Source of the DNA: Sialis fuliginosa
Lineage: Eukaryota; Arthropoda; Insecta; Megaloptera; Sialidae
Direction of reading: 5' to 3'
Length of the DNA stretch: 64,000 bases
NCBI GenBank assembly: GCA_961205875.1
Contig: OY540816.1
Span: 16,874,701 to 16,938,700, forward strand
The position numbers and the translations under genes were made by a program. How positions within the stretch are numbered: position 1 is the stretch's first letter; each line of letters opens with the position of its first letter. This document shows, piece by piece, positions 2,460 to 27,549 of this stretch. The notes under the pieces were generated by a model. The model saw nothing but the letters and a program-made list of their open reading frames with translations. It was not told the origin of the DNA and searched no databases.

Positions 2460-3290
2460 TTTACAAATTTTTTGTATTCGTCAGAAACTTGTTGTAATTT
2501 TACCATTCAAAGTTGTAGAATTAAATCTAAAGTTTTGTAAAATTTCCATACATATTCGGAATTTAATTTTACCACAATTATCTGTAAAATTACTAACCAA
2601 AATTTGCAATTACAATCTCAAGAAGTGATTGGAAATTTACAAATCATTATTTATTTTTTCAAATTCTGTTTGCATTTTTACAAAAATTCATTCAAGTCAT
2701 GAGCGCTATGTATTTTTACAAGTCTTGTTTGTAATTTTAAGTCTAAAACTTTGTAAAATTTCTACACATATTCGGAATTTAATTTTACCACATTTATCTG
2801 TAAAATTACTAACCAAAATTTGCAATTACAATCTCAAGAAGTGATTGGAAATTTACAAATTATTATTTATTTTTTCAAATTCTGTTTGCATTTTTACAAA
2901 AATTCATTCAAGTCATGAGCGCTATGTATTTTTACAATTCTTATTTGTAATTTCAAGTCTAAAACTTTGTAAAATTTCTACACATATTCGGATTTTGATT
3001 TTACCAAGATTAATAGTAAAATTACTAACCGAAACTTGCAGTTACAATTACAGGAAATTTACAAATCATTACTTTTTTTTTGAAAATTCTGTTTGCATTT
3101 TTACAAAATTTCTTTCAAGTCATGAGCGCTATGTATTTTTACAATTCTTGTTTGTAATTTCAAGTCTAAAATTTTGTAAAATTTCTATACCTATTTGTAG
3201 TCTAATCTTACTACAGTTATCAAAAAAATGACTAACTGAAATACGTAATCCAAATTGCAAAAAGTGATTGAAAAATTGTAAAACTTTAAT
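2460..3290. repeat. Tandem array, about 216 bp period, about 4 copies
   Basis: Units repeat with a spacing of about 216 bp (for example the phrase gaaatttacaaatcatta near 2631, 2847 and 3055). The last copy is diverged. Each unit carries several short motifs of the type ttgtaaaatttc / gtaaaattactaac. The period is a multiple of three, so open frames persist across units (2629-3231), but the translated products are low-complexity and resemble no protein. I treat them as non-coding. Confidence 0.8.
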
Positions 3291-4099
3291 TACTTTAGAT
3301 TTGTTTATATTTTTACTAGTGTCTCTTACAATCATATAGTTTTATGTAATCTTCTAATTCTGCTGTGTAGTTTCAAGTATAAAACTTGGTATATTTATTT
3401 TGCATTTTTATAAAATTGTGACTTATGCAGATTTAAAATTTAATTTGAATGCAGTTCTAAGTAAAATTAGTAGCAAACATTTATACTTGAATTGCAAGTA
3501 TGAAGTATAGATTATAAAAAAATATTTTTTTTTTATTAAAATGTTTTAATATACATGTTGTTTCTGAATATGAAATATGTTAGTTTTATAAAAAAAACCT
3601 CATAGAATCGATCAAGTGTATAAAAAAAATTGTGAAAGAACCGAATTATTCACTGTGGTAAAAAATAGTGATAAAATTTAATTGTAAGTGTAATAGGGTA
3701 TGTTCAAAACTGCATATCAACATTTTTTATATTTGAAAGTAAGTAAATCTTTGCTAATTATTATTTATGAATTATATATAAACTGGTCAAAATGCCTAAA
3801 ACAACCTTTATAAATGCTCCATATGCCGGTGTAAAACAACCTTTAATTTTATTCGAATTTGCAAGTCCCGACCAGCATAGAAAAAATCATTGTTGCGTTT
3901 CTTTTGACATGCCGACACAAGTATAGAACAGTGATTCTCAAAGTGTGGGTCGCGACTCCTAGGAAGGTCGCAGAAAAATTGATGACATAAACCGAGTTTA
4001 GTAAGCAAACAATTATTTTTTACTTGGTGTGAAAACAGTGTCCACTATTCGCTGAATTAACAATGACAGTTCTCTTGCCATTTGCAACCAACTTATTTA

Positions 4100-5478
4100 T
4101 AGGCGAGCGGATTATCGAGTCTAGCTCGCTTAGAAATGACAATAACCGACCAATCGACGTTCTAGTGGCTAAAAATGATTTTATTAAATTCTTTATATTT
4201 TTCTGAGAAAAAACATCTATATACATGATATTTTTTTATGCGGTCCTTCAATAGGTACACACATTTTTTTGTTTAATAAATCTAAATCTGCATTAAAAAA
4301 TCTGAAAAAATTATGTAAGCTTCATTGGATTAAAATGAACATTTTTTGTCTCATAAACTTTTTTTTAAAATCAATTGTTTTGAAGATAAAAAATATTTAT
4401 ACTTTAAAAATAGCGAAAAATTCGTATATTTGTGATTTTTTTTCTCGGAAACTAATTGTTCAATCAAAATAAATCAAAAACAAAAAGAATCAGCCAACTT
4501 TGAACTATAACTATATTTTTTTTCATTTTGATCATTACTGTAATTAAATGTAAAAACTTCATTAGAGCCGAACTCACTCTTTGCGCCGTAAATCGATACC
4601 ATGGCTGGCTACAACATTCATTTAATAATAATTGAAGTATTTAAATACTGGGATGAATGCATCAATAAAAACACTTTAGAATATTTTTATTGCACATTTA
4701 TTTGTCACGATTATTTTCTTTATTATAATATTATACTTATCAGAACATCTACAAAAAATATTTCTGTTCTTGTTGCGGAAAATTTCCTTGTACAGCTAAA
4801 ACATGCTCTTGTTTGGATTTAGATTTAAAATGTTGTTCAGTTTGTAGATGTTTTGATAAGTGTAACAATAAAGAAAATAATTGTAACAAATAAATGTGCA
4901 ATAAAAATATTCTAAAGTGTTTTTATTGAAACTTTCATCCCAGTATTTAAATATTTCAATTATTAAACGAAAATTGTAGCCAGCCATGGTATCGATTTAC
5001 GGCGCAAGGAGTGAGTTCGGCTCTAATGAAGTTTTTACATTTAATTACAGTAATAATCAAAATGAAAAAAAATCTAATTATAGTTTAAAGTTGGCTGATT
5101 CTTTTTGTTTATGTTTTATTCTGATTGAACAATTAGTTACCGAGAAAAAAATTCACAAATATACGAATTTTTCGCTATTTTTAAAGTTAAAATATTTTTT
5201 ATCTTCAAAACTATAGCTTTAAAAAAAAAGTTTATGAGACAAAAAATGTTTATTTTAATCCAATGAAGCTTACATAATTTTTTCAGATTTTTTAATGCAG
5301 ATTTAGATTTATTAAACAAAAAAATGTGTGTACCTATTAAAGGACCGCATAAAAAAATATCATGTATATAGATGTTTTTTCTCAGAAAAATATAAAGAAT
5401 TTAATAAAATCATTTTTAGCCACTAGAACGTCGATTGGTTGGTTAGTGTACTCGAAATAGCTGTAATCCGCTCGCCCT
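4100..5478. mobile_element. Fold-back element, about 1.38 kb
   Basis: Two long inverted arms meet near 4800. The left arm begins with GGCGAGCGGATTA at 4102 and the right arm ends with TAATCCGCTCGCCC at 5477. Arm similarity is visible throughout: the plus-strand frame from 4601 and the minus-strand frame from 4987 both begin MAGYN and continue with near-identical residues, and the same holds for the pair starting at 4269 (plus) and 5319 (minus). Those frames are by-products of the inverted arms, not genes. TA dinucleotides flank both ends, but no longer target duplication is clear, so the superfamily is uncertain. Confidence 0.8.
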
Positions 5479-6226
5479 ATTATACGAAATGGTATTTTCA
5501 GTACTGACCAACATCAAAACAAAGCCGCGCTCACTCATCACATTAAATTTAATTTAAAATATTTTAAGTAAACTCAATTAGTTAGTTAAGTTAATGTCGA
5601 AAAATATACAAATAATATTTTGTTCAAAGATGTACTCGAGATAAGTTATTAACTTGTTATTAATTATTATTGATATTAAATTTCGCTATTAATCACAATT
5701 ATGAGTGATTCAATTCAAAAAGTTTGAGAAATACTGGTATAGAACATAGTTTCATGTGAACGCGCTGGCGGAAGGGGTAAATTTTGTTACATTTTATTTT
5801 CTCACGATGCTAAGCTACTGCGTATGAGCAATAATACGATTTTTGAACAGTCGTTATTAAAAATTTGTTGTGTAAAGATTGATGCTGCTACAAGTGATTT
5901 TTTATAATTCTGTTGTTTAATCCAATAATTGTTTTTAACGTTTATTGAATATATATCTGTTATAATTCAGGTAACTTTTTCACCTACTTACATCTTTAAG
6001 CTGTAGCCATTTGTCTAAACAAATGATTTTTATTTTTGGAGTTAAAATTTTAAGGCAAAAGAAATATTTTCTTGTTTCAAATAATTTTTTTCCAAAACTA
6101 AGATTTTAATATTTGAAATGTGTAATCAAATTTTGATCAGTGTTTTAAAATTTCACGACAAATAAGTATAACTTCTAACGCGTGTACATAAGTACACATA
6201 CCCACTTTTTGTTTTGTTTTTTATAG
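5479..6226. other. Intergenic, nothing recognised
   Basis: AT-rich sequence between the fold-back element and the DUF4806 pseudogene. I see no exon, RNA gene or clear repeat. It could contain an upstream exon of the pseudogene, but none is recognisable. Confidence 0.4.
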
Positions 6227-7629
6227 ACATGGATCATAAATATCGTCTTATATTATATTATATTATATATACATGGCTTCATTTTGAAGAAGATTCTGAT
6301 AAGGTATATTGCAAATATATGCCAGGCCTGCTTGATGATCCAAATGTATGCGAAGAACTGCAAGAAATGGTGAAAAATTTAGAACCACCCAAATCTACAT
6401 AGCCAACATTTCTAGTGGATATTCGCGGAAGTGCTCGTAAGTAATGATATGTTATTTTAAAATAAATTCTTTACCACAATATTAATTTTTTTACATTTTA
6501 TTAATTTTTTATGAGCAAAAAAAATATTTTGACATATTATTAATCAATTTTTTAGATACTTATAAAGAAGCTGAAAATAAAATCGTTGAGTTAGAAACAA
6601 AACCATATGTATACTCGACAGCAAATGAAGAATCTGCAAAAAAAAAGCAGATACTGATAAGAAGGCTCTGAAGCGCAAATTTGTTGCAAAGAATAAAGAG
6701 CTCATTAACAAACAATTTAGTCAAGCAGCATTGAAATGGACAGACGATCTTGGTATAAAAATTCGTAAGTAGTTTTAATTTTTTTTGGTAAAATTTTTTG
6801 TTATAAATATGCAACAAATATATTTTTTTTAATGTTAGATTCATCTAATCCTAAAAGTCAACACACAAAAAGAAAAAAATTGAATTCTAAATCGATTTCA
6901 ATCCCAAGTTGTCACCCATCTGATGACACTGACATTAAGTCAACTTCAACGGAATTTTCCAGTGATGAAGACAACACTAACGGATTAGATCCAAACAATA
7001 TATTAAATCCAAAAAGGATTGTAAAAAAAAACGCTGAAGAAAAACTCGAGACCAGTGCAAATCAACCAATGACAATAGGTAAAAACATACATCGTTTTTT
7101 TTTTCTTTAATGTGTATTGGAAACGTGATTTTTTTTGTTACAGAAGATCTGCATCAATTCATATCGAGCTGTTTTGTAAGCATCGGCAAACGTTTGTCAA
7201 ATTTAGGAAGTCAATTAACCAATTATTCAACCAGATTACAAAGCCTTGAAAATGTCATTGAAAAACTTCATAATTCAACAAGCATTTTGAGTGACGAAAT
7301 CAGTAACTCTGAGAGTGAATTTGACATGATTCTTCCACTACAAAATGAAGAAAGTTTTATTAAATTTAATGATAAAATTAAAAATGATGTTGATTTTAAA
7401 AAAAAATTGGTAAGTAATCACAAATAAAATTATTATTTTTTTATATAAGCCCTATTTTATATAATTCGTTTATAAGACATGAATAATAATTTTCTTTTTT
7501 TAGATTTACAAATTGTTATGCTAAATAAACAAGACAGTAGATATAACCAAGAATATTGGAAAGATACTCCGTGCCTACATTACTCGTGATTTGGCAATTA
7601 ATTATGTGGCAATCAAAACGTCAGAATAA
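6227..7629 (+). pseudogene. Decayed DUF4806-domain gene, five exons
   Basis: Exons: 6227-6436, 6556-6764, 6839-7078, 7144-7409 and 7504-7629, all with GT-AG borders whose phases join correctly. The C-terminal part (EFDMILPLQNEESF, then DVDFKKKL, then KNIGKILRAYITRDLAINYV) matches my memory of DUF4806, a domain of unknown function common in insect proteins of multi-copy families. The middle is a Ser/Asn/Lys-rich low-complexity linker followed by a helical segment. Three lesions are visible: an in-frame TAG at 6400-6402, a one-base frameshift at a run of nine A (6638-6646), and an in-frame TAA at 7522-7524 inside DUF4806. The 5' end is uncertain; the first ATG in exon 1 is at 6229. Introns are kept, so this is a non-processed pseudogene. 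It lies between two tandem-repeat arrays. Confidence 0.72.
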
Positions 7630-7829
7630 TCTTCAAAAAAAATTTAAAATTTGTGTTAGCATTAAATTATGTTATTATTTTCATAATATAAATTATTGAT
7701 AACACTGTTATAATTAATGACATATGTTTAATTGTTAATTAAATAATTAATAAATTAATATTTAATAAATATTTTATATTTAACACTAAAATACGCTGTT
7801 GTAGCATTCATTGATTTAACAATTTTTTT

Positions 7830-8660
7830 CAGTAAAATTACAGTCTGATATTGAAATAAAGCTATGCAAGTAATATCCCGATGCATAGTAATATTGCAAC
7901 GAGCGGTTTGTATTTTTTTCAAATTGACTTGATGTAAGTTGGGTAGTAAAAATTCAATACTGCAACAAATAGTTTGTAATTTTTCGAAACTAAATTGGTA
8001 TTAGTTGGGTTGAAAAATTACGATATATGGTTGTAAAATTACTAAATGTATTTAATCTAATTTGTTTAGTAAAATTCCGACTATTGTATTGTAATATTAC
8101 TAAACAATTTTTTAATAAAGGTTAGTAATATTGCAACAAATAGTTTGTAATTTTTCTAAACTAAATTGGTATAAATTGTCTAGTATAATTACAATAAATT
8201 TTTGTAAAATTACTAAAATTATTAGAAACATTTGGCTTAGTAAAATTACGAATAATGTACAGTAATATTACTAAACATAAGTCTAGTAAATGATTAGTAA
8301 TTTTGCGACAGATGATTTGTAATAGTTTAAAATTGAGTTGTGATAAATTGTATAGTAAATTTACAAAACTGTGTTCCATAATTCCGAAAATTGTGGTGCG
8401 TAAAAACTTCCTACACATTTTTGTAAAATTACTAAAATTATTAGAAACATTTGGCTTAGTAAAATTACGAATAATGTACAGTAATATTACTAAACATAAG
8501 TCTAGTAAATGATTAGTAATTTTGCGACAGATGATTTGTAATAGTTTAAAATTGAGTTGTGATAAATTGTATAGTAAATTTACAAAACTGTGTTCCATAA
8601 TTCCGAAAATTGTGGTGCGTAAAAACTTCCTACACATTTTTGTAAAATTACTAAAGAAAT
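7830..8660. repeat. AT-rich array with two near-identical 219-bp units
   Basis: From about 7830 the motifs gtaaaattac, agtaatattgcaac and tttgtaatttttc recur at short spacing. Within this, 8201-8419 and 8420-8638 are two essentially identical 219-bp units. As 219 is a multiple of three, a minus-strand frame stays open from 8718 to 8161 with a duplicated 73-residue block; the product is low-complexity and not convincing. The motif vocabulary is the same as in the array at 2460-3290. Confidence 0.8.
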
Positions 8661-8743
8661 TTTTGACAGTGTTTATTTTTGACAAATAACGTTTAAAACA
8701 AATTAAATCTAATTTCAAAATTAAGATTTACCATATTAATCGT

Positions 8744-8878
8744 ATTTGATCTACGTAGATCTACAATTAACTAGCTTACTAACATAAGTAGTAGATTTAA
8801 GTGGATCTATGCAGATCTAAGGGAAAAAAAATGTTTTTTTAGAGAAAAAAGATCTACTTTGATCTACGAAGATCAAAT
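8744..8878. mobile_element. Small inverted-repeat element
   Basis: The left end reads ATTTGATCTACGTAGATC and the right end GATCTACGAAGATCAAAT, an inverted pair. The interior has further gatcta repeats. It has no coding capacity and no clear target duplication. A MITE is the likeliest reading. Confidence 0.5.
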
Positions 8879-9785
8879 AAATTTTTTCTTAGGTACTTTC
8901 TACTTATACTAACATTATTATTTCATATTATATTAACGTCTATACTTTAGTATAAATTAAATTTAATATGGGCACTTAAAAAGTTGCGTGATTTTTTTAA
9001 ATTAAATAATAATTTTATTTTTTATTTTTTATATATTATTTAATTAACACTAACAATAAAACTATTAATCATTACTGTTATTTTAATGAAACAAAATACA
9101 TTAATTTAATAAAATTTGATGTGTCTAATTTTCAAGGATTGGTTTCATTTACAAATTCTATTGTTTTATTTTTTATATGTACTATAAAAATTATGTGCAC
9201 AGATACTACGAGGGTTGAGTTTCAACATATGTTATAGAATAGATACATTATAATTATATGAAAACCAAAACAAATCATGTTTACTGCTCACAACATTTCC
9301 TAATTGTAAATGTAGGAATGCCATTACAATATATGTACATAAAATAAGTCAATTAAATATGTATATAATTCATGATATAATTTCTAGATATCTTTTAAAA
9401 ATATATTCATTTATTATCATTACAACAGTTTTAACAACATGGTGTTAAAATAAATCATTTAAATATGTATATAATTTATGTTCTAATTTCTAAGTATATT
9501 TTTTTCTTCATTACCCATGTATATGAAATATACGTACATAGTATAAGTATTTGTTAAAGCGTGTATCTGTCGGTCTGTCTGTCATATAACATTTTTTCTT
9601 ATTTCAAAAATAATTCGAAAATTGACAAGAATAATAAAAATCCATTTCCAGTTTAGTAATTACGTTAAAAAAATTCATTTGGAGTAGAGAATATTATTAT
9701 CTTTAATTTACGCCCTTTCATTTTATTCTATCTTTTTTAAAGTTTATCAGAAACACGTTTTAATAAAAAAAGAATCAAGTGCACT
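8879..9785. other. Intergenic, nothing recognised
   Basis: Very AT-rich sequence with short repeated phrases such as aaatatgtatataatt (near 9357 and 9461). No exon is seen, although an upstream coding exon of the serpin should exist somewhere 5' of 9882. Confidence 0.4.
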
Positions 9786-9841
9786 GTTTACTGTCAGTAT
9801 TACGTATAAGAAAGTCCCGTGGCTTCTATGGCAGATATTAT
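9786..9841. repeat. Dispersed repeat shared with ABCC copy 1 intron 2
   Basis: A stretch of about 55 bp containing cagtattacgtataagaaa and tggcagatatt recurs with few changes at about 34083-34137. It lies just upstream of the first recognised serpin exon. It is probably a transposon remnant. Confidence 0.6.
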
Positions 9842-9881
9842 TAATTAATGATTAATTTGTATTATCAATTACATTTTTCAG

Positions 9882-12800
9882 TGTCACAATTACAACAGTT
9901 TCAACAACATGGCGTTCTCTCCCTACGGCGTAGCCGCTGTTCTCGTAGCTCTCTATGAAGGCGTAGCAGGTGCAGCAAGGATAGAAATTCGCAATGCTGC
10001 AAGATTACCAAAACGACTAGATATAGTTAGAGTTGGATTCAGAGATATCCATCGATTATTAAGGGTAATTATTATTCATATTTTATTGTCAACATTTTAA
10101 TATTAAACCTTAGTAAATAAGACAGGACTGTTACATCGCCGCATCAACATCGCATCGACATTAATAATTCTAACCGTGTAAGTGAGTTGACACGACCATT
10201 TTACAGTACTGTCTTATTTGCCAAGGCTTGAGTGAGTAGAAGTTTTCTTAAATGTTGTATTTGGAATATATTATACATATATAACTATGTGCTATGGGCT
10301 TCAGAAGTCGTCTGCCACCCTAAAGGTCAGAATCGCTCACAACAGATTAAAAAATACATCATTGGTTATCTTTTTCTAGGGCGGAGCTTATATAGTTACA
10401 TCATTTTAAATAAAAACACAAATATACGTCTATTTCATTAATTAATTTTACATCAAGTTTAACATATTTAAATACTAAAATTCGGAATATCAAATATTTA
10501 TTGCCACAAAATTTACTTATACAATTTTGAATGAAAACTGGTCGACCACTTCTGCATCCAATTTTACGTATATAATGTTTTGTGATAAAAACGTTCAATA
10601 TTGTTTATTAGTGTTAGATCTACAAATTTCTATAAGAGAAATCCATGTTGCGACTGTTTCAGCTTTTTTTATGTAATTTTCAGAAACCCATGAAGATGTT
10701 CTCCATAATATTCATGTGCTAGTTTTATTAATACAACTTTAAAAATATCTCATAAAGAAGCGACGACTACCCAGAAACCATAGATAACCATGAAAAGTAA
10801 AAAACTTCAGTTTTTACCTTTTTTTTAAAGATTATTTGCCAAAGTTAACGATAAACTTCTTTACATAACACTTTTAGTAAATGTAAATCGTATAAAAACA
10901 TTTGTTTTCTCGACTCAAGTTGTATGCAGCCAATTATTTTGTCTTCTAAAAAGAATAATCTATAATATTGACTGACCTTAACTTAAACCCTAACTAACTC
11001 ATGACAAAAAAATAAAAATGAAACAATAAATTCTTCATTCGTGATTTAAACAATTATCAATTGAAACGCAGTAAGTATTTGTTGTTGTGAGCCAAACAGG
11101 ATACACGGAGGTTTAAGAAGATATAATTTATGTGTTTTTAACACAAATTACAGATAAACAATACGTATTTGATAATCACGACTCCAATTAGAAGAACAAA
11201 TAGGATCTTAACAGGTCATGATTATCAGGGCCATCTTCGACAAGGATAATATTTATATGTAGTGGGTACTTTATTAGGATTATTATTTTTCACCAGACCG
11301 CTGATCGAAAAATTAAAAATTTACCATTGCTTTCCTTATACCTTTATAATAATTTGCTATATAATGCTAAGATTTGTTCGATTTATATGATTATGGTTCA
11401 TTATGAAGTTCATAATGACAACACCCGACATTAACTATAAAATACTTATACCTTTATACAGGGCTTTTTTGTAATGCAACGCGGTAGAACGGCGTTCCGG
11501 CACCTTTTTTTTCATGGCATAGGAAAAGCTGCTTTAAATTTAATTATAATTTTCTTTAGTATAGGCATCTTTTTTTTTTAAAGCCCTGCCTTTATATAAG
11601 AAAAGTAGGATTCAAAATGGATTTGCGTATCAATCGATCAAATTTAAGTATTTTACAATGCAGTACTAAATAGTTACAAAATTTATTTATAAGTTTGGTA
11701 GTGAAAATTATTTTTTTCGGTAAAGTTGTTAAAAAATATTTTGATTTCTTCAAAATTTGCAATTTTCTCATGTGTTTTTATATTAACGAGACCCCCAAAG
11801 ATTTTGCCTTAAACAATTTTTTATTTAATATCTGGAGAACCCATTGAAATTTGATTATCGGTTTAGTATTAATATACATGTTATCGATTACCAGTATCAA
11901 CCAATGATTATTTATACCACGAATGTGGTGGCTCTTTGATTTTTATCTATTATTTTTTTGTACTTTTTTTCCCTATGTTTGGTACTTTTATAAAGTCATA
12001 TGATAAAAAATACACAGAAATATACTTTGTTAATTTGTCATAAGATCAACCGTTTACAAGAAAGAGAGGTTTGCAGAATTTAACTTAATACGGATTCAAA
12101 TTAACCAACTGTAATAAGGGCACATTTTTCCCCAAACTAACAGTAGCAATGGTATTAGATTTTATTAATTATATAAATATTCATAAAAACTAATACAACG
12201 CGGTCGAAACCGCGAGTGGGCCCATAGTACAATATATTTATTTACAATTGTTTCAAAACGATTTGTCTTATATAGCTTTTACCACACAGGCTATGCATCT
12301 TTTAAAATGAAATAATTTACGAAATTAAAAATAAATAAAAATAACTACAGGGTTGTCCGTAAAAAACCGGCTCTGGCCAAATAATTCATCCCAAATCGTA
12401 CACAGCAACCTTGAGAAGAAAAACGCGAATACAAAAGGATTAATTGGATCGTGCGAAATCATACACTATTTGCAATATTATTTTAACGACATAACAATTC
12501 AATTGCATCTAACCTTGGATTGTTTGGTTGTCATTATTTCAAAATTATGTTAGTCATCCGCGCACTGACCATAGCATATGAATTATTCCACTCAAATGAG
12601 AAGATGTGTAGTATAGACTTAAAGAATCATGACACACAGCGAAAAATTTAGTCATAAAGAAACCAGATTACAGGATGTGTAATTATTTCGCTGAAATCGG
12701 AAGATCTGCTCATTCATACTAAAACAAAAATTAAATGGTAGCTGTATTCTATTATTTTAATAAAATTAAAAAACAAAAACTAGAAAAAATCAAAGGTTTG

Positions 12801-15800
12801 AATTTTAGTAAATAAAATATTTTATAAGATAATTTTATGTATCGTTATACAGTTGAACATTAGAAGATATTTAAATATCTTCTGAGAAAAAAGAAAAATT
12901 GAGAAATTTTATTCACTGCTATAATCGACGAAACATTAACTAAAATAACGACCTAAAAATACGGCTAAGGGGTCAAGGAGGGGGAAGGAGTCACAAGCTT
13001 CGTGACGTCACATTTAAAAAATCGAAATAATGAATTTTATATAAATTCTTAGAGCGAAAATTATTATGTTGTTAGTAACTCGAGATCGGTGTAAAATTTC
13101 TTTTTATTCGTTGATTTTGATTACCTACTTATTTCTCAAACAAAAACAGGGGGATGTGGCAACTTTTGACAAAAACGGTAGGAGGGGGGGAGGGGTAAAA
13201 AAACCATGTTTGTGTGACGTTATTTATGGATGGTCCCTAAGAATAAACAAGTTATTAAAAGTTTAAAAACACTGGAATACGTAAGAAATGTATCTTCAGA
13301 TACTATAAAAAAACTTATAAACACTGAAGTCGGAATGAACATCTATAGAAAACTGTAAAGGACGCCATTAATTCTATGCTTTGTTACTTTTGTTGCGTTT
13401 GTTTTTATATGATAATTACGGCTACTAATTTACATTTTATTCTAATGAAATAATGGGATCATATAACTTTGGAGTGTTGTCTTTGACCTTACGGAGCCGT
13501 GGTTTTGAACACTTTCATGCTCCACGAATTTATTTTTTCTGCTTGATGACCAAACTAGTGATAATCGTTTTTTGGTATTCCCGTTTCACGGTTATGCGTT
13601 TGAAATTTGAAGCAAGGATTTTAGTTTTATTATTACGCGTGAATTCATAAACATTACATTTTTATTATTATTATTTATTATTATTATTATTTTTGTTTCA
13701 ATTTTTTTTTATATTCTAGATGTAGATTCTAGATCGTAGGTTTGATCAATCGTATAATTGAAAGGGTCTGGTCATTACAGTAGATTACTTAAGTTTTTGA
13801 AAAACATAACCTTTTGTTAAATAAAAATGACTGCCCTGGGACTTTCTGATTCTCTGTACCTACCGTGTTTCTATTATATAATTATATTTTTTTAGTATTT
13901 CAGATAAAAATAAGATACAAAAAAAGTATGACATAAATTATAAATAATAATATCCTTTACAACATTTTTTCTAATTTGCTCCATTTAAAAAAAAAATAGA
14001 AAAATTAACAAGAGTAAACATCAGTTTCCGATTGTAAGATTGTTTTCAAAAATAACAGGTTTTATTGATCCTTGAAAAAAATTGATCTTAAATATAGAAT
14101 TTCACCCTTCTATATACTGTCGTTATGAGTTACAGAGTCTACAGAAAAAAATCGGCTTTACAATAAATACTTAAGATATGTACATATGTATATATGTATT
14201 TCATAATATGGTTATATAAGAAAATAAAAATCAAGAAATTTTAAAAATATAAATCACTACAATGAGGAAAATTACTTATTTTAATAATTAACAATTTTCT
14301 CTTTAAACGTAAAAGTTATCGAGGTTTAGCAAATATTACGAATTATTTTGAAATGATTTCTTATTTTACATTACTTAAGTACGTACATTGGTTGCAATAT
14401 AGCGTTTAACATAACTAGTTGTAGCGACTAAAATGCAACAATTACTTACATAGTAGGTAATTAATTGTAGCTTTGCACTCTTTACCAGATTATCTTTATC
14501 TTAAATGGAAACCTACCCATATATGACGATATGTTTGCTCATCAGAAAACAATACGGCTATGTATAGGGGTAGATAACTATAGTACTTGGCTTTTCAGTG
14601 GGTACGTTTCTTTTAATAGCATTATATCTTTTAAATAGCTGTAAAGATGTTATCCTTATTATAAGAATAAAATCACATTTAGAGAATTGTGAGAATCAGT
14701 AATTAATCTAGAGAAGGGAGGGAAGGAGGGGTCTAGAGGGTATTTTTACATTTTTTTGTGTGTATTTCTGCAGTTAAATTTAAACAAAATTAAATAAAGA
14801 TCATGACACTTGTTTATATATTAACAATATTGGCTATATAAAATAAAAATTATTATACTTCGCCCTCCCCCCCCCCCTCGTACTTGAAATTGAAACCACT
14901 ATACGAATATTTATTATACCGTTTTCTCATCTTGCATGTATCCGGAAAAACTGACGAGCTCAACAAATGTAGGGAAATGCGCTTTAATGAACAGCGATTG
15001 TTTATTAAGTTAATAACAACTGACACCGTAAAAAATAACCGTCATTGTATCACCAATGAAGGCGAAAGTTACGTATATAGATACATACATGCCTATGTAC
15101 TCGTACATGTATGAAAAACAACACTATTATATTATAATACAATTATCATGGATAATAAATCATCATTTTACCTATTCCTGCTTTTTTACACAATATATTA
15201 TATTATAATACTCATGGCATATATCTGTCAAATTAATATACATGCTCATTATATTTATTAAATGTACACACATTTTTTATATAATTAAATTATGTAATGA
15301 ACTAATTAATTTAGTGTACATTACAGGTATATAATATAGGTACATTATCAACAGTTATTTTGTACATATTACATTAGACGATAGTCGTCAGAATTGTATC
15401 GCTCTAGTGAAGCAAACCATAAGTCGTGAACTTTAATGTACGCCCGTGCAATAAAGCTAAAATTTAAGAAAATTTAGACTACATTGAATTCATTCACTAA
15501 TTACAAAAAATTAATAGACCTAGTACATAATACATATTACTGATTATTTTGTAATTCATTTTCTGGTTAAAAAATCTGATTATCTATCACGTTATAATTT
15601 TTTGTAAAGATTACATATGTATATTTAATGAAGTTTCTTTTTTCAGAGTTACTTTATCCCACAAGAAGGATTCTTAGCCGGTTTATCACTGAACAACAAC
15701 ATCACCCTGACTGACGAATACCTAGCAATATTACGTTTCTACGGTTATGACGTAGAATCCCAATTCACAACCCAGAGGCCAGTCACAACAGAGATCGCCA

Positions 15801-18800
15801 CAGAACCATCTCTGTACAATACCACAACACCAATGTCAACTACAGACAAGACATTAACTACTGCAACATCTTTAAATACCGGCGAAACTACATTCCCCAG
15901 CACAATAGACGAATATACCACAACAATGAAGTCGACAACTGATATATTTCTTCCAACTATACCTCAGACAACATCGACTGAAGAATCGACTTTCTATACT
16001 ACAACAGAAAAACAGTTTGTATCGACAAGTAAAGATGAAGAAACAACTATGGTGTTCCTTGGAGTTACAGAAGAATCTATTGAAACATCACCTAAACCAA
16101 CTATATCGACAACATATCCGTCTGAACCTGAACAAACAACTAGAATGCCTACATCTACAGATACAATGACAACGACAAATTCATATACAACCGAAACCAT
16201 GACTGAAAAAACCACCCCAACTGATTCTTCCACAATTTCAAACATACCGACAACCCAAGTGTCAACAACCACAGAATCATCTCTAGAAGACGAAGCCGAA
16301 ATGGTAACTGGGGCAACTAAAATTACTTCAGATCGTGTATCAAGGCTGAGTACAATAACGCAGCAAAAAACTTCTCCATACACGGTGAATATTCCTGAAA
16401 AAGGTACTACTGAAGAATCAAATGATATTCCTAACGAAAATAGCTTCACAACAAGTCCATCGATATCAGTTGAAGAAAGTACGATACCTATTTATGATAG
16501 ATTTGGTGGATCTTCAAGTACTGAAGAACAAACGTCATCAGTGGGTATAACGGATACAACTGAAAGGATCTCTGAAGAATCATCTGAATCAGTAAGTATA
16601 ACAGAAACTACTAGATTAAACACAGAAATGAGTTCTGAAAAATCTGCTGCAACATATACCACAAGTGCTGGAAGTAGCTCTGTAGAAACTGAATCTGTCG
16701 ATACAACAGTTACTTCTGCAAGTACTGAAAGAAGTACTGAAGAACAATCTGAATTTGTGACTGTAATAGATAGTACAGCTTATACAATACCAGTTTTTAT
16801 TATTACTGATACGACAGAGCAAACCACAAGTAATGAACAACAAACTGTAGATAACTTCAGTCAGGTCGGAACAGAGCCTACTACTGATATAGAATCTAAT
16901 ACAACACCTGATTCAGAAAATGGCATATCTTATGTGACAGTAAGTTCAGAAACAACGACTGAAAGCACTACAGTTTCAAATAATGAGAGTGATAGGACAG
17001 AAGAAAGTACATATAATACAAAAGAAACTACTAGTAGTGAAAATGAATCAGAAATGTTTACGGAGGAACAAATTAGTACTGATCTTAGTACTTCAGAATC
17101 AACGTATAAACCTGAAAGTATCAATGCCACTACAAACGATCCTTCTGTGATTGTTTTTCCTGATAGAAATCGAACAAGACGATCTGTTGTTGATTACTTG
17201 CTTGCTAGGTATTTACTAGATTTTATATTATTTTTATTAAAACTTAATAATTTAGTTTACTAACAATGTATTTTAATTATAATATTAATACTGTTTCTAT
17301 TAACAACACTAATAATGTAGAAATTTAGTTTTTCTTTCTACCTTTTTTTAATTGTAAGTTTTGTTTAAAATTTAAATACTGGTAACTCTCGATTAATTTG
17401 AATTCATTATAAATACTAAAGGAGTAATTTTATTAAATATGTCGCGAATGCTACTCAAAATAATTTACTATATTAATTAACTTTTCCCAATTTTTAGTAC
17501 AGCTGGGTACCTGAGTAATTTTTGCTCACGAACGAAATATTTTAGTCACATCCGCTCATTCACAATCACGAACACTCACGAATTATATTTTTTATTCATG
17601 CACAGAGGGTCACTCTGGTGACACGATTAAATTTATTTTGTTATAATTTTTTTTAAATGAAAATTATTGTTTTTACGTGCATTATGTGTATAGGTTATAT
17701 TTGTATTATTTTTTTCTAAACTACATTTCTGATGCGAGTAATAGAAAACAAATCAAAAAGAAAATAATGCACAGTTCATTTTTAAAGGAGGTTTTTGGTG
17801 TACTATCGAAGTTTGCAACACTAGCTATGCACAGAATTTCTTCTTTGAACTTATAAAAAAATATTTGTTTTCTGATAAAAATTATACTGCATTTTTTTAT
17901 TTATGTATTATGAGTTCAGTTTTAAAAAAAGGTTAAAATTTTCTTACCTTCAAAACGCATGATTATTTTACTTTGACTCATGATCCAAGATTTGAAAATA
18001 ACTCACGCTCACGTCCGATCACGGTCTTGATCTGATATGACCTAAAAAAAATACGACCCGCGTCAAGCTCTAATTTTAAGAACCCTATCACCTGCATTTA
18101 TTACACCTATCCTACTGATTGATTTTAAATACAGCATGTTTTAAAAAATAACAATCTTATCAGTAAATGTTTAATATAGGTATCTATAATATTTGTTTTA
18201 ATTAATAAATATCCGAATTAGGATATTTTAAATTCGTTTGTTATTTGTCTTTCTTTCTTCTGTTGAAAATGCAATAATAGTAGTTAAATGTTGAAAACAA
18301 GTAATAAGATAATGAAAGCGTATTTTGAAAGAAATATTAATCGAATGTTACTTGTATATTATTAAAATATAAATTATGTTTTTTTTCTTCAAAATTAAAT
18401 CAACAAACAGATCATAATAAAATTAATAAATTGTATGGAGAAGACTAAATAATATTAAATAAACAATTATTACTGCAACGTCGTATTTTGATATTTCAAG
18501 GCATCACGATACAAACGGCGATTTCTTTAACTTCTACCACCCGATGGCAACACCCCCACCTCCGCCACCACCGCCACCAAGACCTGCACCCAGAAAATTA
18601 AATCGTCCGTTTCTTGCGAATGGATTTCAACCAATTTTCGACGTAAATTATACAGAATACGAAGCTGTTTTGCCATATTTGTACATGCCACGAATTGGAG
18701 CCCAGGCGTTGAAATTCCCATTGGATAGTGACAAGTCAGTAAACATTTTTAATTCATTTTTTAATATTAATCTCACACTTTTAAATATTTTTTATTCATA

Positions 18801-21800
18801 TAATAATCTTGAAAAGAATCGGACAAATACATAAAAATACAATGTTCTCCGAAAAAGTTAGGTACCTTTTTTGTATGTGGCTGTGTAATTACATGCATAA
18901 TACATGTAAAATTATCTATAAAATATACACCTAACCTCAGTGGTGGATTAAGGAAGGTTTGTACCCGGGGTGGAATGTTAATTATGCACCCTTCCCCTAA
19001 AACATTTTTTTTATTTGTCACTTTACAAAATAATTGTATTTCAATTTTTCACAAAATAGTATCCTCTATGAATAACACCCTTACTAATTTTGTACCCTTC
19101 TGTACCTTGGCATTCAAAACGGGCTGCCCTACCTTAATCCGTCACTGCCTGAACTAAATTTACATACATTACATTAAAATAAATCAGCGGCGAAGCGTCC
19201 ATGGAAGCAAGGGAAGCAGTGCTTCCCTTACTTTATGGGTAAATTAATACAAATCTGTGTTTTCAGTTAATAAATAATTAAAAATATTATTAGAATATTC
19301 ATCTTTATGCGCAACTCAAACATTTTAACCGAAAATCAAAAAAAATCATTTAATATTAATTTACACACTCAATTATAAAACTATAATACCTCTACGTCTT
19401 ATTTTCTTGTATTTTAGTCGATATTTGTATGATGAGTTGAAGTTCACTGCAGGAAATTTCACTAAAAAATTTAGAATTTTTTATTTGGTTAAAAGTATGT
19501 TTATTGTATAGAAAATGACGTGAAAAGTTGTTTGTTTCAAACCGCAGGTCTGTATCTCAAACCGTTCTCGAGATATAGCCTCTCAAAGTTTTAGTTTTTT
19601 CAAATTTTTAGAGAAAAAAGGCCATAACTTTTGAACGTGTGGTCGGAATTGATTTTAGTTGACGGATTTGAAATCAGCGTGTCAAAATCTATATAATGAC
19701 ATGTATAATACCTTAAAACTCGAAAAAAAAGTTTTCGCGAAAAATCGAAAAAATTCAATACCTTAAAAAAATGTCGATTTTTGACCAAAATTTTTTTGTC
19801 GGATTTTAAAGTATTATACATGTCATTATATAGATTTTGACACGCTGATTTCAAATCCGTCAACTAAAATCAATTCCGACCACACGTTCAAAAGTTATGG
19901 CCTTTTTTCTCCAAAAATTTGGAAAAACTAAAACTTTGAGAGGCTATATCTCGAGAACGGTTTGAGATACAGACCTGCGGTTTGAAACAAACAACTTTTC
20001 ACGTCATTTTTTATACAATAAACATACTTTTAACGAAATCAAAAATTCGAAATTTTTTAGTGAAATTTCATGAAGTGAACTTCAACTCGTCATACAAATA
20101 TCGACTAAAATATATGAAAATTAGACGTAGAATCATTTAGTTACTATATAAATATATGAGAATTTATTTAAAAAAGTAAAAGCTTGAGCTTAAGGTGTTT
20201 CATAACTAGTTTTTTTGTTAATAGGAAGAGGAGGATTGACAAAATATGCTTCCCTTATTAAATATTTCACGCCTCGCCACTGAAATAAATATAATATGAA
20301 CTTTGATATTTTCAGGTATTATCTTCTTGTTATTCTACCCAGTAACCCACGGGGTATGAATGGTTTGATATACGATCTAACAAGACATCTTAACTTGAAA
20401 TATATAATAGGAAACTTAAAGGATACTTACGTCCGCGCCGTTATTCCAAGCTTTAAACTCAGCGGATTTGTCGTTTTAACAAACGCTTTACAAAGGGTAA
20501 GTAAAAATTGATTCATTTATTTTATTAAAATCAAATCAATTGGTTAATTAAATAAAGTTTTATTTTATAAATAAAAGGATTCTATGTTCTACTGTGAATA
20601 TTGCATATATTTCATTTTGGCTTCCACACCTTATTCGAAGGAGGGAATAAAATTTTGTTCTTCGATTTCAAAATTTCTATTTAAGGTCAAAATTCAAAAC
20701 AAACACTTTTTGTTCCGTATCTATCTGTCCTCTGAATCCTTACTACACGTATAACTCATGAAACATTAAACTGATTTTAATGAATCTTGATTTCTTATTT
20801 AGGTCTTGCTAATAGATGGTTCCGTATATATAAAAAAATCATGTGTAAGGGGAGGAACGGTATTACAAAAAAAATTTATTTTTTAAATATCTTAAGGACA
20901 ATAATATAGTAATACAAAATTAACTAACCACAGAATGCTAACAAGGGGACTACCAGATCCTTGCTGCACCAATTTGCTTTTAAAAAATTAGGGTTGTAGT
21001 AGTGGCATAGACAAACCTACACATCAAGCTATTTGACGGAAAACTCATAAACAAACGAGAAAAAAATTATGAAATTTCCTCTGTAAATTCGCTTAAACAT
21101 GTAGCTATAAAAAAAAATCGATCGAACCCGACCATTCACGGTTGTCGCCCGTAGCGCTAACGACCGAGCCACCGCTAGTGTTATGGTTTGACTTCAACTG
21201 GATAAGAAGCGAATTTACAGAGAAATTTCATAATTTAATTTTTTTAAGCAAATTGGTGCGGCAAGGGTCTGGTAGTCCCCTTGTTAGAATAATACAGAAA
21301 AAATTATAACTAAATTATTTTTTATTTGAAAAAAAAATTAAACAAAAATAGATATGCACAGATGGAAATTATTTTCCTGTTACCTTTTGTTCATGAAAAC
21401 TGATTTCCATTGTGTATTTAAGTTACAAGAAAATCAATAAAATATTTATTATTACACAGCTTGGACTCCGTTCGGTATTTGAACCTGGCCACTCAGATTT
21501 CAGTATAATGACAAAAGATGACGACACGTACGTTACGAACATCGAGCAAGCAGTGACCGTCAACATTCGTAATTACATGGAGCCAAAACTATTGTCAAAA
21601 AGTAAGTATATACATTCATACATAATATTACTTTTAGTTAAAGTACATGTTTTGTGTAAGAACAATTTGTTTGTGTTTTTAATTTTTTCGTGATTATTGG
21701 TTTTAGTTTTATCTATACTATAATTATTTACAAACAATAAGTTTGAGTCATTTATACTAGAACTTAGCAGGTGTAAGTCTAAAATTTTTGTGTAGACCAA

Positions 21801-24800
21801 AACTTAACCGACCTTTTTTAGCAGAGGTAAGCGTAAGGGCCGATCCACACTATTGTGCCGGTCTCGGTCCGGTCTCGCTCCAGTCAAATATTCAGTATAG
21901 TAAACACTATATCGAAGCGTGACTGGACCGAGATGTTTATTTATATTTGATTGGAGCGAGACCGATCGACCCTTAGCACGCTACACAGGAATCAGTAATT
22001 TAAAAGCAGTGGTGATTGGTGTACACCATAGAAAATTGATAAACATTTGACACACTTCGCAGGAAGCATTTGGTTTTATTATGGTTGTGGTACAGATCAT
22101 TTTTTTTATATTATACCGAACATTATAATATTAAATGTGATCATTAAGTAATAAATTATAAGTTGATTTAAACTTAAATTATATTATTAATGATAAGTGG
22201 CAAACGATTTAATGTTTAGTAATCTCATTTATTTAAAATTATATTTACCTTGACATATGATACGTTTATAATTTTCAAACTATTATACTTATTAGATCTA
22301 TTTAAATATAATTATCATATACATATATGCATTATAATTTTTAGGAAACTATATTATTATATAATTTTTTATAAACTTAATTGACTATATCCAGAGGTGT
22401 AACTATGGTTCCATGCACCCCCGACAGGGGTTTTTTTAGTATGAAACTCTAGCTTGTTCAGGCAGCTCTAAAATTCAAATGTTGCTTTATACGCAGTGCC
22501 TAAGAAAAAATGAAAAAATAAATTCAGATAGTTCTCGATTTACGACTGTGCTCCGTTATATATTTTATATTCAAATTTCAAACATAAAGTAATTTTTGCG
22601 ACGTTTTTTTTTTTTTAATTATCGTCTCTACTTCTTTCTAAAACATAACTTATTTTGTTCAAATTGTGCAGCCCTAAAATTTCGTTAAAATAACCCTTGG
22701 CCTCCGGTATATATTACTCCGGTTATATTACTGCAGACCTTTTTTTCCAACCCCCTGGATCTTACACCACTGGCGGGGCCCATTTCGCTACCCCCTAGCT
22801 ACGTCTCTGACTATACCTTACCTTCAAAAAGTACTTTTTCAATCAATCATTAAAAAATACCATACATTAAAAAATCAATTGTCAAGTTTACAGTTTCAAA
22901 ACTCATTGTCAGGTAAACTAGGTATTTGAGAACAAAACAACTACGTGAGTGCTCCAAGAATGACATTGCAACAATAGATGTCGCGTGAGGCTATGTCATT
23001 ATTGTTGTTAAATTGAGAGAATAAATATACACTAATGGCTAAATTAATGCTTCCATCGGCACACTTGAGGATTGCCTAACGTCCTCTTACTCTTAGGCAT
23101 GCTTTTAATATATGTATAAGTAGGACTCCACACGAAACTAGATTTAGGTAAACCTTGTCTAGTCTCGGATTGTAACCGACAGTCTCAGTGGCGCTGGAGC
23201 CGGAGAGAGGGGGGAATCTGCCCCCCCCCCAAATATTCAGTGGAGGGGGGAACTGAGTACTTCCCCCTTCCAAATTTTGATCTTGTTTTTTAAGCGACGG
23301 GTGATTATAAAAATCTGTTTTTTTTTACACTAAATTCCTGAATTAAGAAATTACTAAATTTTTAGGTATTTTTGAATGGTAATATATTCGATAAAACAAA
23401 TACAGCAGTAACGCGGATAAACGAGATAGATTTGTGGTAGATTGTAGAGATGTAATGCGTGCTTGTTTAGAGCAGTCGGTCGCGTAGGCATTTACCGATT
23501 TCAAAATACGCGCAGGCAACCTCGAATATAAAAGCTGAAAGCTTGAAGTATATTTTTTATTAAAAATTTCACAATATGTAGGTGCTGTTTTTGACAAGAA
23601 ACACCAAAGAGAAGAGAAAATGTACATACATATGTAAGTGCACATTTTGAAGGACACTTTCCTTATGTAATTTAGCGGTTATTAGTTCGCGACAACGCCG
23701 CATTACTACAGCGCCACATTATCCCGCTTCTGCTAATTTGCCTAGATTAACGTAACTGACGTAAAGTTCTTTGTCTATGGCGCACTGGCATTATACTAAC
23801 GTGTATTAGGAAACGACACTATGTAATTTAATATGCTGTTATTATGTCTCCTCCCAGATTCGTTGACAAATTACTTAAAACCGTGAAAGTTTTTGTGCTG
23901 CACTAAAAACCATTCGTTGCGTAGATTTCAGTCGATATTGATCTACGCAAATGGCAAATGCATTAGAGACGTATTAATTAATATTTAATATTCAAATTTT
24001 GTTGGTAATTTTCACCCCTTCAATAGCTATTTAGGAACATACAAAAAATAAATGTCTCTTAGGTTCAATTGAACTGCATGCAAATGTATGTGTACCAAGT
24101 CTTATTAAAATTAATGAGATAATATTCGCAACGTTCACTTTTTTAATAATAATAGATTTCGAATATTTCCAAAACCCCTAACTCGATTAGCACCAAAATC
24201 AATAGGTCTGGAATACCCACTGAGAAAAACCTTTTCCCCAAAAATAATTCAGATCGGTGCATTTTTACAGTAATTATCGTGAACGAAAGAAAATTCTACA
24301 TCCAGACGCACGCACAGACACACAGACACACACAGTCGCCATTTGGAAATTAACTTTTCTTTACGTTTTGAAGATAGTTCAATCAGAATCTGGTCTTATC
24401 TCAGACACGATTTTTCGACGGTATTACAATATTTCCATTTCCTTCGGAACATGGAAGTAAAATGCATTATTTTAAACTGCTTTTTTAAAAGAGCAAATGA
24501 AAAACATTTTCGATAATTGACTTCCTAAACGACTTATGTAAATGTACCAATATAACAAACGATAATTTTATTTAAATAAAAAAATAAAATTCAACATGAC
24601 AAGGAGGCATTAATCAAATCTCGTAGTGACAGTTTACAATTTATTTTTTCGTTGATGGGCTTGAAAACATAACTATTTAATAATATTCAATATTTATTAC
24701 ATACATACTGCCATCATATACATAAATAATATATCTATCAGTGATGGTGGTACTTTTTTATATCAGATTGGACAACAATGAATTATATAAATACGATTTT

Positions 24801-25196
24801 TTCGTACTTTTTATTTTGGATTAATTTTTTTGCTATTTTTCGATTTACGACGGAATAATTTGCCCTTATTCGCACAAGAAGGAGGGGGGGGGGGGAGATA
24901 TCCACTCAGTGGCGCATTTAGGAATTTGTTTGATCAACTATCTTGGTAACTTCTACGAATGTATTATTTTTCTTAATATTTATAATTTTTGTATAGAATT
25001 AATTTTTTCCGCATTTTCTTTTATAAAAACTCATATCTATGTACAATTTTTTTTCTTTGCAGGGGAGTATTTGAGCTACAAGACGGCAGATTTTATAGCA
25101 GCTCATCCATTCTTGTATTTTATAATGGACGCAGAACTCAACGTAGCATTAATGGCAGGAAAAATATTAAATCCATTAAATTCTAGAATACAATAG
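9882..25196 (+). CDS. Serpin-family protein with mucin-like insert (5' partial)
   Basis: Exons: 9882-10064, 15647-17208, 18501-18734, 20316-20496, 21460-21601 and 25063-25196. All borders are GT-AG, phases agree, and they sum to 811 codons plus stop. The N-terminal part (MAFSPYGVAAVLVALYEG, then GFRDIHRLL and LRFYGYDVE) matches serpin helices B to E. The C-terminal part matches strands of sheet B (YLYMPRIGAQALKFPL, YYLLVILPSNPRGMNG), LGLRSVFEP, and the terminal ADFIAAHPFLYFIMD ... GKILNPLN. Between them, exon 15647-17208 encodes about 450 residues rich in Thr, Ser and Glu, ending in RNRTRRS, a furin-type site; exon 18501-18734 adds a run of nine prolines. The segment normally holding helix F is not recognisable. 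Before ADFIAAHPF there is no Glu/Gly/Thr/Ala-rich hinge, so protease inhibition is unlikely. The exon at 9882 starts in phase 0 after an acceptor, so a signal-peptide exon is expected upstream but was not found; the ATG at 9909 lies inside the serpin fold and is not a credible start. Confidence 0.82.
10114..10220. mobile_element. Small MITE in serpin intron
   Basis: The ends AAATAAGACAGGACTGT and ACAGTACTGTCTTATTT are inverted repeats about 105 bp apart. No coding capacity. The target duplication is not clear. It lies about 50 bp after the donor of the exon ending at 10064. Confidence 0.6.
10221..11458. other. Serpin intron sequence
   Basis: Intron between the exons ending at 10064 and starting at 15647. 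No exon or RNA gene is seen in this part. Confidence 0.4.
11459..11588. mobile_element. hAT-type MITE, 130 bp
   Basis: The ends CAGGGCTTTTTTG and AAAAAAAGCCCTG are inverted repeats, flanked by a perfect 8-bp duplication cctttata (11451-11458 and 11589-11596). This is a textbook hAT insertion without coding capacity, inside a serpin intron. Confidence 0.88.
11597..15646. other. Serpin intron with transposon debris
   Basis: No exon is recognisable. Pieces with repeat character include a GC-rich hairpin of Helitron-like look at about 12185-12215 (cgcggtcgaaaccgcg), a sequence starting acagggttgtccgt at about 12349, and two G-rich stretches near 12970 and 13150, each followed by a gtgacgt phrase. 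None could be delimited. Confidence 0.35.
18938..19147. mobile_element. hAT-type MITE, 210 bp
   Basis: The ends CAGTGGTGGATTAAGG and CCTTAATCCGTCACTG are inverted repeats. The flanking 8-mers cctaacct and cctgaact agree at 6 of 8 positions, an aged target duplication. It sits in the serpin intron just upstream of another hAT-type element. Confidence 0.75.
19185..20282. mobile_element. Palindromic hAT-type element, 1098 bp
   Basis: Ends are CAGCGGCGAAGCGT on the left and ACGCCTCGCCACTG on the right, flanked by a perfect 8-bp duplication aaataaat (19177-19184 and 20283-20290). Almost all of the interior (about 19418-20107) is a long inverted repeat folding near 19770. Both arms carry, for example, ctatatctcgagaacggttt or its complement. 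No transposase is encoded. The right end lies only 33 bp upstream of the serpin exon at 20316, so the insertion abuts its splice acceptor region. Confidence 0.88.
20939..21286 (-). mobile_element. Palindromic element with tRNA-like core
   Basis: The outer ends (TAACAAGGGGACTACCAGA and its inverted copy ending at 21286) and inner arms (aaatttcctctgtaaattcgctt and its inverse near 21210-21233) form nested inverted repeats. The centre, 21117-21185 read on the minus strand, resembles a tRNA-derived promoter: an A-box-like TGGCTCGGTCG and a B-box-like GGTTCGATCG. A tRNA-derived SINE captured in, or evolved into, a fold-back element would fit. No true tRNA cloverleaf with an anticodon is claimed. 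Confidence 0.6.
22392..22809. mobile_element. hAT-type MITE, 418 bp
   Basis: The ends CAGAGGTGTAACTA and TAGCTACGTCTCTG are inverted repeats. The flanking 8-mers actatatc and actatacc agree at 7 of 8 positions. It is non-coding and lies in the last serpin intron. Confidence 0.85.
23186..23400. repeat. Dispersed repeat, relative at 62205
   Basis: Starts cagtggcgctggagccgg and continues through poly-C/poly-G stretches to aaattttgat, acactaaa and tttttaggtatttttgaat. The same order of phrases is found at 62205-62360. The CAGTGGCG start suggests a hAT-type end, but the other end was not located. Confidence 0.6.
23401..25062. other. Serpin intron, repeat debris
   Basis: No exon is recognised. 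At about 24275-24340 a cacaca-rich stretch (acgcacagacacacagacac) of the kind often seen in insect transposon tails is present. A poly-G tract lies near 24883-24896, and cagtggcgcatttagg at 24907 looks like a single hAT-type end. Confidence 0.4.
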
Positions 25197-25613: not shown

Positions 25614-26223
25614 TGACTTTAAAATCGCTGTACAAATAGTGCGTTTTTAACGTTTTTTAACAAAAATAACTTGTGTTAGTATTATTATATAACATTTTAA
25701 ATTTTTAAATAAATATTACATAGTCGGGACAGTTTTTAATGTCTATATATTCTTCTTATGATTTAATGAACTTAATACATACCTAATATAAGTATTTTAT
25801 GATATGTTTACAAATGTCCAGACATGTTTTATACTTTAACATCTGTGATTATGCTTCTTATTAGTATTATTAGAAGAATCATATCATGTATAATTTATTA
25901 TTATACATAAGTATTGATTTTGTAAGTAAAAGTTAAATAAATAGCGAATAAAATCATTTAAAAAAGTAATGACATCAAAAAAATTAACATAATAATACCT
26001 ATGTCTATTATTTTACATTTTTTGCAATCACGTCTCATGATTACTATTTTTAAATTTGAAATAACCGGTTTCCTGTTTCCAGTTTAGTTAGTAAGTAGTG
26101 ATTTTGTTCTCTTAATTTTGGTGACATTGTCAAATGTCATTTTGACATATAAAGAACCAATATTATTATTGTACTTGGATTTAACCTTAAACTAAAAATC
26201 GATTGTAACATTTAAGAAACAAT

Positions 26224-27549
26224 ATGTACAAAACGATTGCAAAACTAACAAATGTATATTATTCTGTATCGACTAATATATTTTCTGTAAATAAATATAT
26301 TTTTAGAAATAACCATACAAAACAATACTTTACTGTTAATCCTTTCTGTAAAATAAAAATAAACAGTTCGTTTCCCATTCAACTGAAACCTTCGGATGAG
26401 CATAATCATTCAGATGATGATAATATTATCATCACTACAAGTGAAAACAATGGAATCCTTCTGAATTGTGTTAATAATGAAAATGAATTCATAATATCGG
26501 GCGAAGCAGTCAAACATTTAGATCCAAAACAAATACCATGTATTATTGAAGGCCCTATTAAAGCAGGTACCTATCTTTATTTTAGTTACTTTCTTTAAAA
26601 TTTCAAAATCTTTAAAATTACTTTTATTATTTAGATTTAGATATCAACATGAAAGGAAAATCAGATATTATAGTTGGTCAGTTCGGTGGTACCGATGTCA
26701 ATATTACTACTGACAAAGGTAAAATAACTTTAGAGGGTTTAGAAAGTGAACATATTCACTTATCATCACACAGCGGAGACATTACTTGTAATGGTACAAT
26801 GCGAGCTCGAACCATCAAAGTACAAACAGTCGAAAAAGGAGTAAGTTTATTGATAATTAAAATCAAAAGTTTCAGTCATATATTCGATATATATTTTATA
26901 GAATATAAAAATAAAGAAGATTCAAGGGATAGATTTGTATTTGTCTTCTGATAAAGGTGATGTTGAAATAAATTCGTGCTATAGCAAGACGGCCAACTTT
27001 AAATCAACAAATGGTGATTTTAAACTAAATAATATTCATGCGGATTGTTCTATTGAAGCTGAAAATATTGGAACTTTGCTAATGAGTAAGTTAATGAATT
27101 TTTTATTTTTATTTACAACTGGCCACAAATTATAATATGTATCCATAATCACTCGCCTAAAGTTAGAACGTGATGTAGTAGTGAGGGTTCTCGTAATATT
27201 GTTTATTTTTCTGAGAATTAAAATAAAATAAACAATTTCAGCTGGATTTGATGGAACATTACATACAGAAATAGACAATTGTGATGGAAACATCGATGTA
27301 CAACTCTCACGGCTTCATGATAATTCTAAAATCAACATTAATCAAAGTAACAAAGTAAACATACGATTAGGAGAGGATATCCAAAAAAACAATAATATTG
27401 TTATTTTGGCTAAATCAGTTGTTAATCCTGATGGTATAAAAATAAATGAAGAAATTGATGATAAGAATATTACATTGAATGTTAATTGCAAAAAATCAAA
27501 TGTCAATTTGAGTTCCTCATCATGGTCTCAGATGATAACATTTATTTAA
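26224..27549 (+). CDS. FAM185A-like protein (DUF4097 beta-repeat)
   Basis: Exons: 26224-26566, 26635-26840, 26902-27085 and 27242-27549. All introns are GT-AG, phases agree, and the product is 346 residues. From about residue 115 the protein shows the repeated pattern of short strands with Gly-Asp and Asn (DINMKGKSDIIVGQFGGTD, LYLSSDKGDVEINSCYSKT, STNGDFKLNNIHAD) typical of DUF4097, a right-handed beta-structure found in FAM185A. The function of FAM185A is not established. The first 45 residues are basic and hydroxylated with no acidic residue, so a mitochondrial targeting peptide is plausible. The start is the first ATG, preceded by an in-frame stop-rich leader. A second acceptor 6 bp downstream (exon 2 from 26641) would keep the frame and drop two residues. 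No lesion is seen. Confidence 0.85.

Follow-up and report, generated by a model that had tools for sequence, protein, structure and literature searches.

A candidate Spn100A-type gene for a serpin-derived protein with a mucin-like insert in Sialis fuliginosa

Introduction

Drosophila Spn100A (CG1342) is a protein of 653 amino acids in which two serpin blocks lie around an insertion of 294 amino acids. It was published in 2009 as a new fold derived from serpins, with no function assigned, and was grouped with the non-inhibitory serpins; the same description reports orthologues in mosquitoes and other insects (PMC2770083). Spn100A is tabulated at -5.39-fold among genes whose regulation is disturbed in a Grainy head study (PMC3348937), which fits a role in the epidermal barrier. 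It is also reported as upregulated in trabid-deficient flies and listed among serpins potentially inhibiting the protease Hayan (PMC12446012), which would speak against a non-inhibitory role. Bombyx serpin-10 and -11 were linked to Spn100A in a butterfly paper (PMC3654919), and serpin11 was placed with Spn28Dc instead in another description (PMC10671500). Spn100A was not found in the accessible part of one serpin phylogeny (PMC8233489), and in the accessible main texts from one open-access library we found mention of neither a mucin-like segment nor a convertase site in it.

Here we analyse a gene of Sialis fuliginosa in a stretch of 64,000 nucleotides, hereafter the window (C8:16874701-16938700, + strand), from a 392-Mb genome of 20 contigs. 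On balance we favour the reading, made from sequence, that its product is a secreted protein of the Spn100A type, derived from a serpin and non-inhibitory, with an extracellular coat or binding role, a mucin-like insert and a possible convertase cut. The layout is already known from the fruit fly and is striking, not unprecedented.

Results

Two serpin blocks and an absent middle

Six exons in the window have GT-AG introns and compatible phases, and joining them keeps the reading frame. Together with a candidate first exon upstream they give a model of seven exons and 874 amino acids (window coordinates unless marked C8):

C8:16872277-16872465 (window -2423 to -2235), + strand: candidate coding exon 1, amino acids 1-63, hydrophobic leader and helix A
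9882..10064, + strand: coding exon 2, amino acids 64-124, strand 6B and the helix B-C/D region of the N block, phase 0/0
15647..17208, + strand: coding exon 3, amino acids 125-645, from the end of the N block through the mucin-like insert to SVVDYLLA, in phase with both neighbours
18501..18734, + strand: coding exon 4, amino acids 645-723, linker, nine-proline run and the start of the C block (where the Pfam match to that block begins), phase 2/2
18553-18579, + strand: nine-proline run within exon 4
20316..20496, + strand: coding exon 5, amino acids 723-783, serpin C block, supported by splice sites, phase, Pfam and PDB serpins
21460..21601, + strand: coding exon 6, amino acids 784-831, part of the C block as far as the hinge-equivalent, whose start is at 21571 (NYMEPKLLSK), supported by splice sites, phase and PDB serpins
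25063..25196, + strand: coding exon 7, amino acids 831-874, last part of the loop, then AAHPFLYFI and the C-terminal strands, supported by splice site, phase 1 and a Pfam match reaching profile position 370
25194-25196, + strand: stop codon TAG at the end of exon 7

Without exon 1, the spliced protein matched the Pfam Serpin profile (PF00079) at 1.5e-25 and 90.7 bits (cut-off 27). The C block reached 5.7e-21 and 75.6 bits on its own, above the cut-off, and its best match among solved PDB serpins was 6.9e-16; the N block alone scored 6.6e-5 and 22.7 bits, below the curated 27-bit cut-off. The profile was covered in two blocks, from about 15/20 to 112/113 and from 193/195 to 370, leaving about 80 positions (about 113-194) unmatched. 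On the usual serpin topology, the unmatched part would comprise helix F and strand 3A, together with strand 4C and the greater part of strand 3C; a complete serpin fold, including helix F and strand 3A, was not found. The protein is thus serpin-derived and not a complete serpin. The original prediction had the serpin halves split by about 450 Thr/Ser/Glu-rich residues; the insert is indeed there, 472 amino acids long and ending in RNRTRRS, but the roughly 80 profile positions are gone as well, so that the insert replaces serpin sequence rather than merely splitting it.

Where the N block ends is uncertain. We read its end as helix E on the basis of Pfam, whereas a MAFFT alignment with serpins of the same genome set its last residues against strand 3A, and pairwise scores for the two placements were near chance (z <=2.2).

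Comparison with Spn100A and other relatives

By description rather than by sequence comparison, the likeness to Spn100A lies in two serpin blocks parted by a long insertion. As described, Spn100A is shorter (653 against 874 amino acids) and so is its insertion (294 against 472), its C block is longer (235 against about 175), and it retains some hinge residues where this gene has none; the borders of the insertion may therefore differ. At E <= 0.001, no other place in the genome matched the C block among the best candidates scored. With orthologues reported in several insects and no second C-block match, this gene is the natural Spn100A candidate in the genome, and we regard orthology, judged on the described layout, as quite likely.

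The alternative that fares best is that another serpin was rebuilt independently in this lineage and reached a similar end state without being an Spn100A orthologue. The block lengths and the hinge unlike those described for Spn100A would fit such a history, as would the recurrence of low-complexity parts at other places in serpins of this genome. The orthologues reported in several insects and the lack of a second C-block match speak against it, and we consider it unlikely.

Among other relatives, the sequence of Pteromalus puparum PpSPI10 was called incomplete by its authors; its gap overlaps the segment missing here, and its accessible description mentions no mucin-like insert (PMC5691223). 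PpSPI4 and Cydia pomonella CpSPN26/BmSPN27, as described, also carry extra segments on a serpin scaffold, located elsewhere than in this gene; in CpSPN26, of 1405 amino acids, about 40 residues are added in the loop. NCBIfam gave no match, Rfam gave nothing above its gathering scores, and three pattern matches in viral contigs yielded no confirmed relative.

Several serpin loci elsewhere in the genome carry additions of their own. At L022 (C6:14512000-14521999), an Asn/Gln/Thr-rich repeat insert of 265 amino acids lies between helix I and strand 5A and ends in an R-X-K-R motif (RVKR), with the hinge intact. At L015 (C13:9640000-9649999), a serpin with a long loop region shares its open frame with a preceding, very extensive Ser-rich repeat part. 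The frame spans at least 1590 amino acids within the locus and continues past its left end, and this serpin resembles CpSPN26/BmSPN27 as described. At L023 (C6:21568000-21577999), some tens of extra residues precede strand 5A and the hinge is intact; an open frame of 497 amino acids with APSNFT-type repeats lies nearby.

Support for the gene model

The 5' exon, carrying signal peptide and helix A, likely lies outside the window, 2.2-2.4 kb to its left. A scan of window positions 1-9880 gave one weak candidate, at 7110. A second scan, with somewhat different thresholds, covered 60 kb upstream as well as 1-9880 and returned 11 start codons, 5 of the 11 with a phase-0 donor among those listed. 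We picked C8:16872277-16872465 because its end, DVTNNLGLMVLE, followed by CHNYNSFNNMAFSP, resembles the passage from helix A to strand 6B. The junction with exon 2 aligns with residues 11-56 of PDB 7qtz at 6.3 bits, which is not significant alone. The Pfam match to the N block starts at residue 65 and leaves exon 1 out, and including the exon gave an E-value of 9.9e-5 against 6.6e-5 without it. The hydrophobic leader of this likely exon, beyond the reach of the window, supports the earlier view that the protein is secreted.

Exon 3 stays open from serpin-like residues across the Thr/Ser/Glu-rich stretch as far as RNRTRRS; given the stop frequency of this window, its open frame of 520 codons would arise by chance with a probability of about 10^-17. 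No ordered donor-acceptor pair for an internal intron in exon 3 passed a crude splice filter, the sole passing acceptor (15968) preceding every passing donor. The acceptor filter, a pyrimidine fraction of >=0.65, misses three of the six acceptors of this gene, those of exons 3, 5 and 6.

Exon models built from five serpins of the same genome were searched against window positions 1-34000 and 20 kb upstream. They found neither a helix F-3A-3C segment (best i-E 0.89; 0.1 for a shorter helix F-3A model, on 20-residue frames) nor a strand 5A-hinge segment (best 8.7), and a pattern search for a hinge or middle exon in the three + frames, with starts in 1-34000, was likewise empty. On six control loci outside the middle model, that model gave strong matches at L016, L018, L019 and L020, a weak one at L017 (0.0025) and none at L015. 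Of these loci, the hinge model recognised L016, L018 and L020 (of two stretches at L020, one had gone into the model) and found nothing credible in L015, L017 and L019. Such models would detect a normal hinge exon. They missed exons 4 and 6 of this very gene, which are diverged, so a further exon of similar divergence would escape them. The expectation that no exon with a normal hinge had been overlooked thus held, for models and pattern alike, with models that are weak for strongly diverged sequence.

These results bear on a second alternative, an error in the gene model. On this view the mucin-like exon would be part of a different gene, or some of it would be intron, and the serpin proper would have an ordinary middle and hinge. 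The exon structure is predicted from genomic sequence, and the insensitivity of both the acceptor filter and the exon search speaks for such a reading. Against it, serpin-like residues and insert share a single unbroken exon that is in phase with the exons before and after it, the only passing acceptor in that exon cannot be paired in order with a donor, and models that were clear on control loci found nothing in the window. We consider a wrong gene model improbable and hold that this is very probably one gene, mucin-like insert included.

Other features of the window were recorded alongside. Exon-like open frames at 6172-7586, a gene or a remnant, lie within the proposed first intron, and two pieces of them had no Pfam match. 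A - strand open frame at 8164-8727 repeats itself almost exactly, a local direct repeat of the DNA. Intron 4 holds long inverted complementary stretches around 19750 (19430-20110) that look, by eye, like a hairpin-type mobile element. Just downstream, 26209-27549 contains frames of a presumably FAM185A-like gene, one with a DUF4097 match that stays below threshold (21.3 bits; cut-off 22.9). Three tandem ABC-transporter genes, which we take to be of the ABCC/MRP type, occupy 34119-57951, with Pfam ABC_tran in one frame per copy.

The insert is mucin-like in composition

15767..17182, + strand: mucin-like insert, amino acids 165-636 (472 amino acids), delimited by composition

The insert is a long Ser/Thr-rich stretch (S+T 41.5%; T 25.8%, S 15.7%) with 12.5% glutamate, no cysteine and no tryptophan, and it holds 80 acidic and 25 basic residues. 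At 5.1%, its proline content is low for a classical mucin. Six of the eight N-glycosylation sequons of the protein fall inside it. Judged from its composition, mucin-type O-glycosylation may occur. The insert is single copy, no second copy or close paralogue being found in the genome at E <= 0.001. A tandem-repeat origin was considered and rejected, there being no array at the insert and only diffuse direct repeats.

A decaying serpin pseudogene is very improbable: conserved fold elements and the hinge are lost, but none of the seven exons is interrupted by a stop, their splice sites are usable, the insert shows a strong codon-position bias, and so long an open insert would be unlikely.

The reactive-loop hinge is lost

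In a gap-free register, the hinge-equivalent agrees with 1 of the 10 positions of the Drosophilid P17-P8 consensus (PMC2770083), and the best 10-residue window of the loop fragment with 3 of 10; an inhibitory-type hinge is not present. Elsewhere in the genome, seven serpin loci provided nine hinge windows, which scored 7-10 of 10. These windows came from a pattern for hinge-like sequence that gave 12 rows in 11 loci; 3 rows that were not serpin were dropped. Being preselected in this way, they show the intact form in this genome, not its frequency. A 10-residue stretch inside the mucin-like insert, outside the loop, also reaches 7 of 10, by composition. From the P17-equivalent to the 'PF', the loop measures 27 residues, against 29, 29, 31, 31 and 32 in five readable serpins of the genome. 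Of the short, hingeless stretch proposed originally, the missing hinge consensus stands, but the loop is merely 2-5 residues short.

The absence of a hinge, of a second hinge exon in the searches and of the helix F/strand 3A region bears out the proposal that the protein does not inhibit proteases, and we hold it to be non-inhibitory with high confidence. A structural or binding role is plausible.

A candidate convertase site at the end of the insert

17165..17182, + strand: RNRTRR, candidate proprotein-convertase (furin-type) site at the end of the insert, followed by Ser

RTRR is the sole R-X-K/R-R motif in the protein. Shuffling the mature protein 5000 times produced such a motif in 470 cases, so it is not rare by composition; the longer form R-X-R-X-K/R-R, chosen post hoc, appeared in 91 of 20000. 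The nine-proline run does not follow RNRTRRS directly, as had been supposed: 26 residues and an intron lie between them. Judged from the motif, cleavage at RNRTRR in life may occur, at slightly under an even chance. With the end of the leader assumed at residue 30, the predicted cut would leave one cysteine in the N-chain and none in the C-chain. With no cysteine in the C-chain, no disulfide could link the two chains, and shared packing alone could hold them together.

Discussion

The favoured reading, a Spn100A-type protein derived from a serpin, suggests the following mechanism. The remaining B-sheet core would pack from both serpin halves, and the insert would form an acidic brush, extended and O-glycosylated. 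Cleavage by a proprotein convertase after RNRTRR may yield a mucin-bearing N-chain and a C-chain that would stay together by shared packing, with no disulfide. The product would be an extracellular coat or binding protein, perhaps of cuticle, trachea or another apical matrix, and not a protease trap.

A bolder version is speculative and, in our judgement, rather doubtful. In it, a serpin has become a two-chain, convertase-processed mucin of the insect matrix, in which the part from helix F to strand 3C has been exchanged for a glycosylated brush and the B-sheet core serves as a disulfide-free clasp, a latch instead of a trap, possibly as a rule for all Spn100A proteins.

From this gene one can see what part of the serpin seems to have been replaced in the Spn100A-type layout, and the layout is linked to a mucin-like segment that bears a single convertase motif. 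Two predictions follow for the protein: it would form no complex with a protease, and it would consist of two chains without a disulfide between them.
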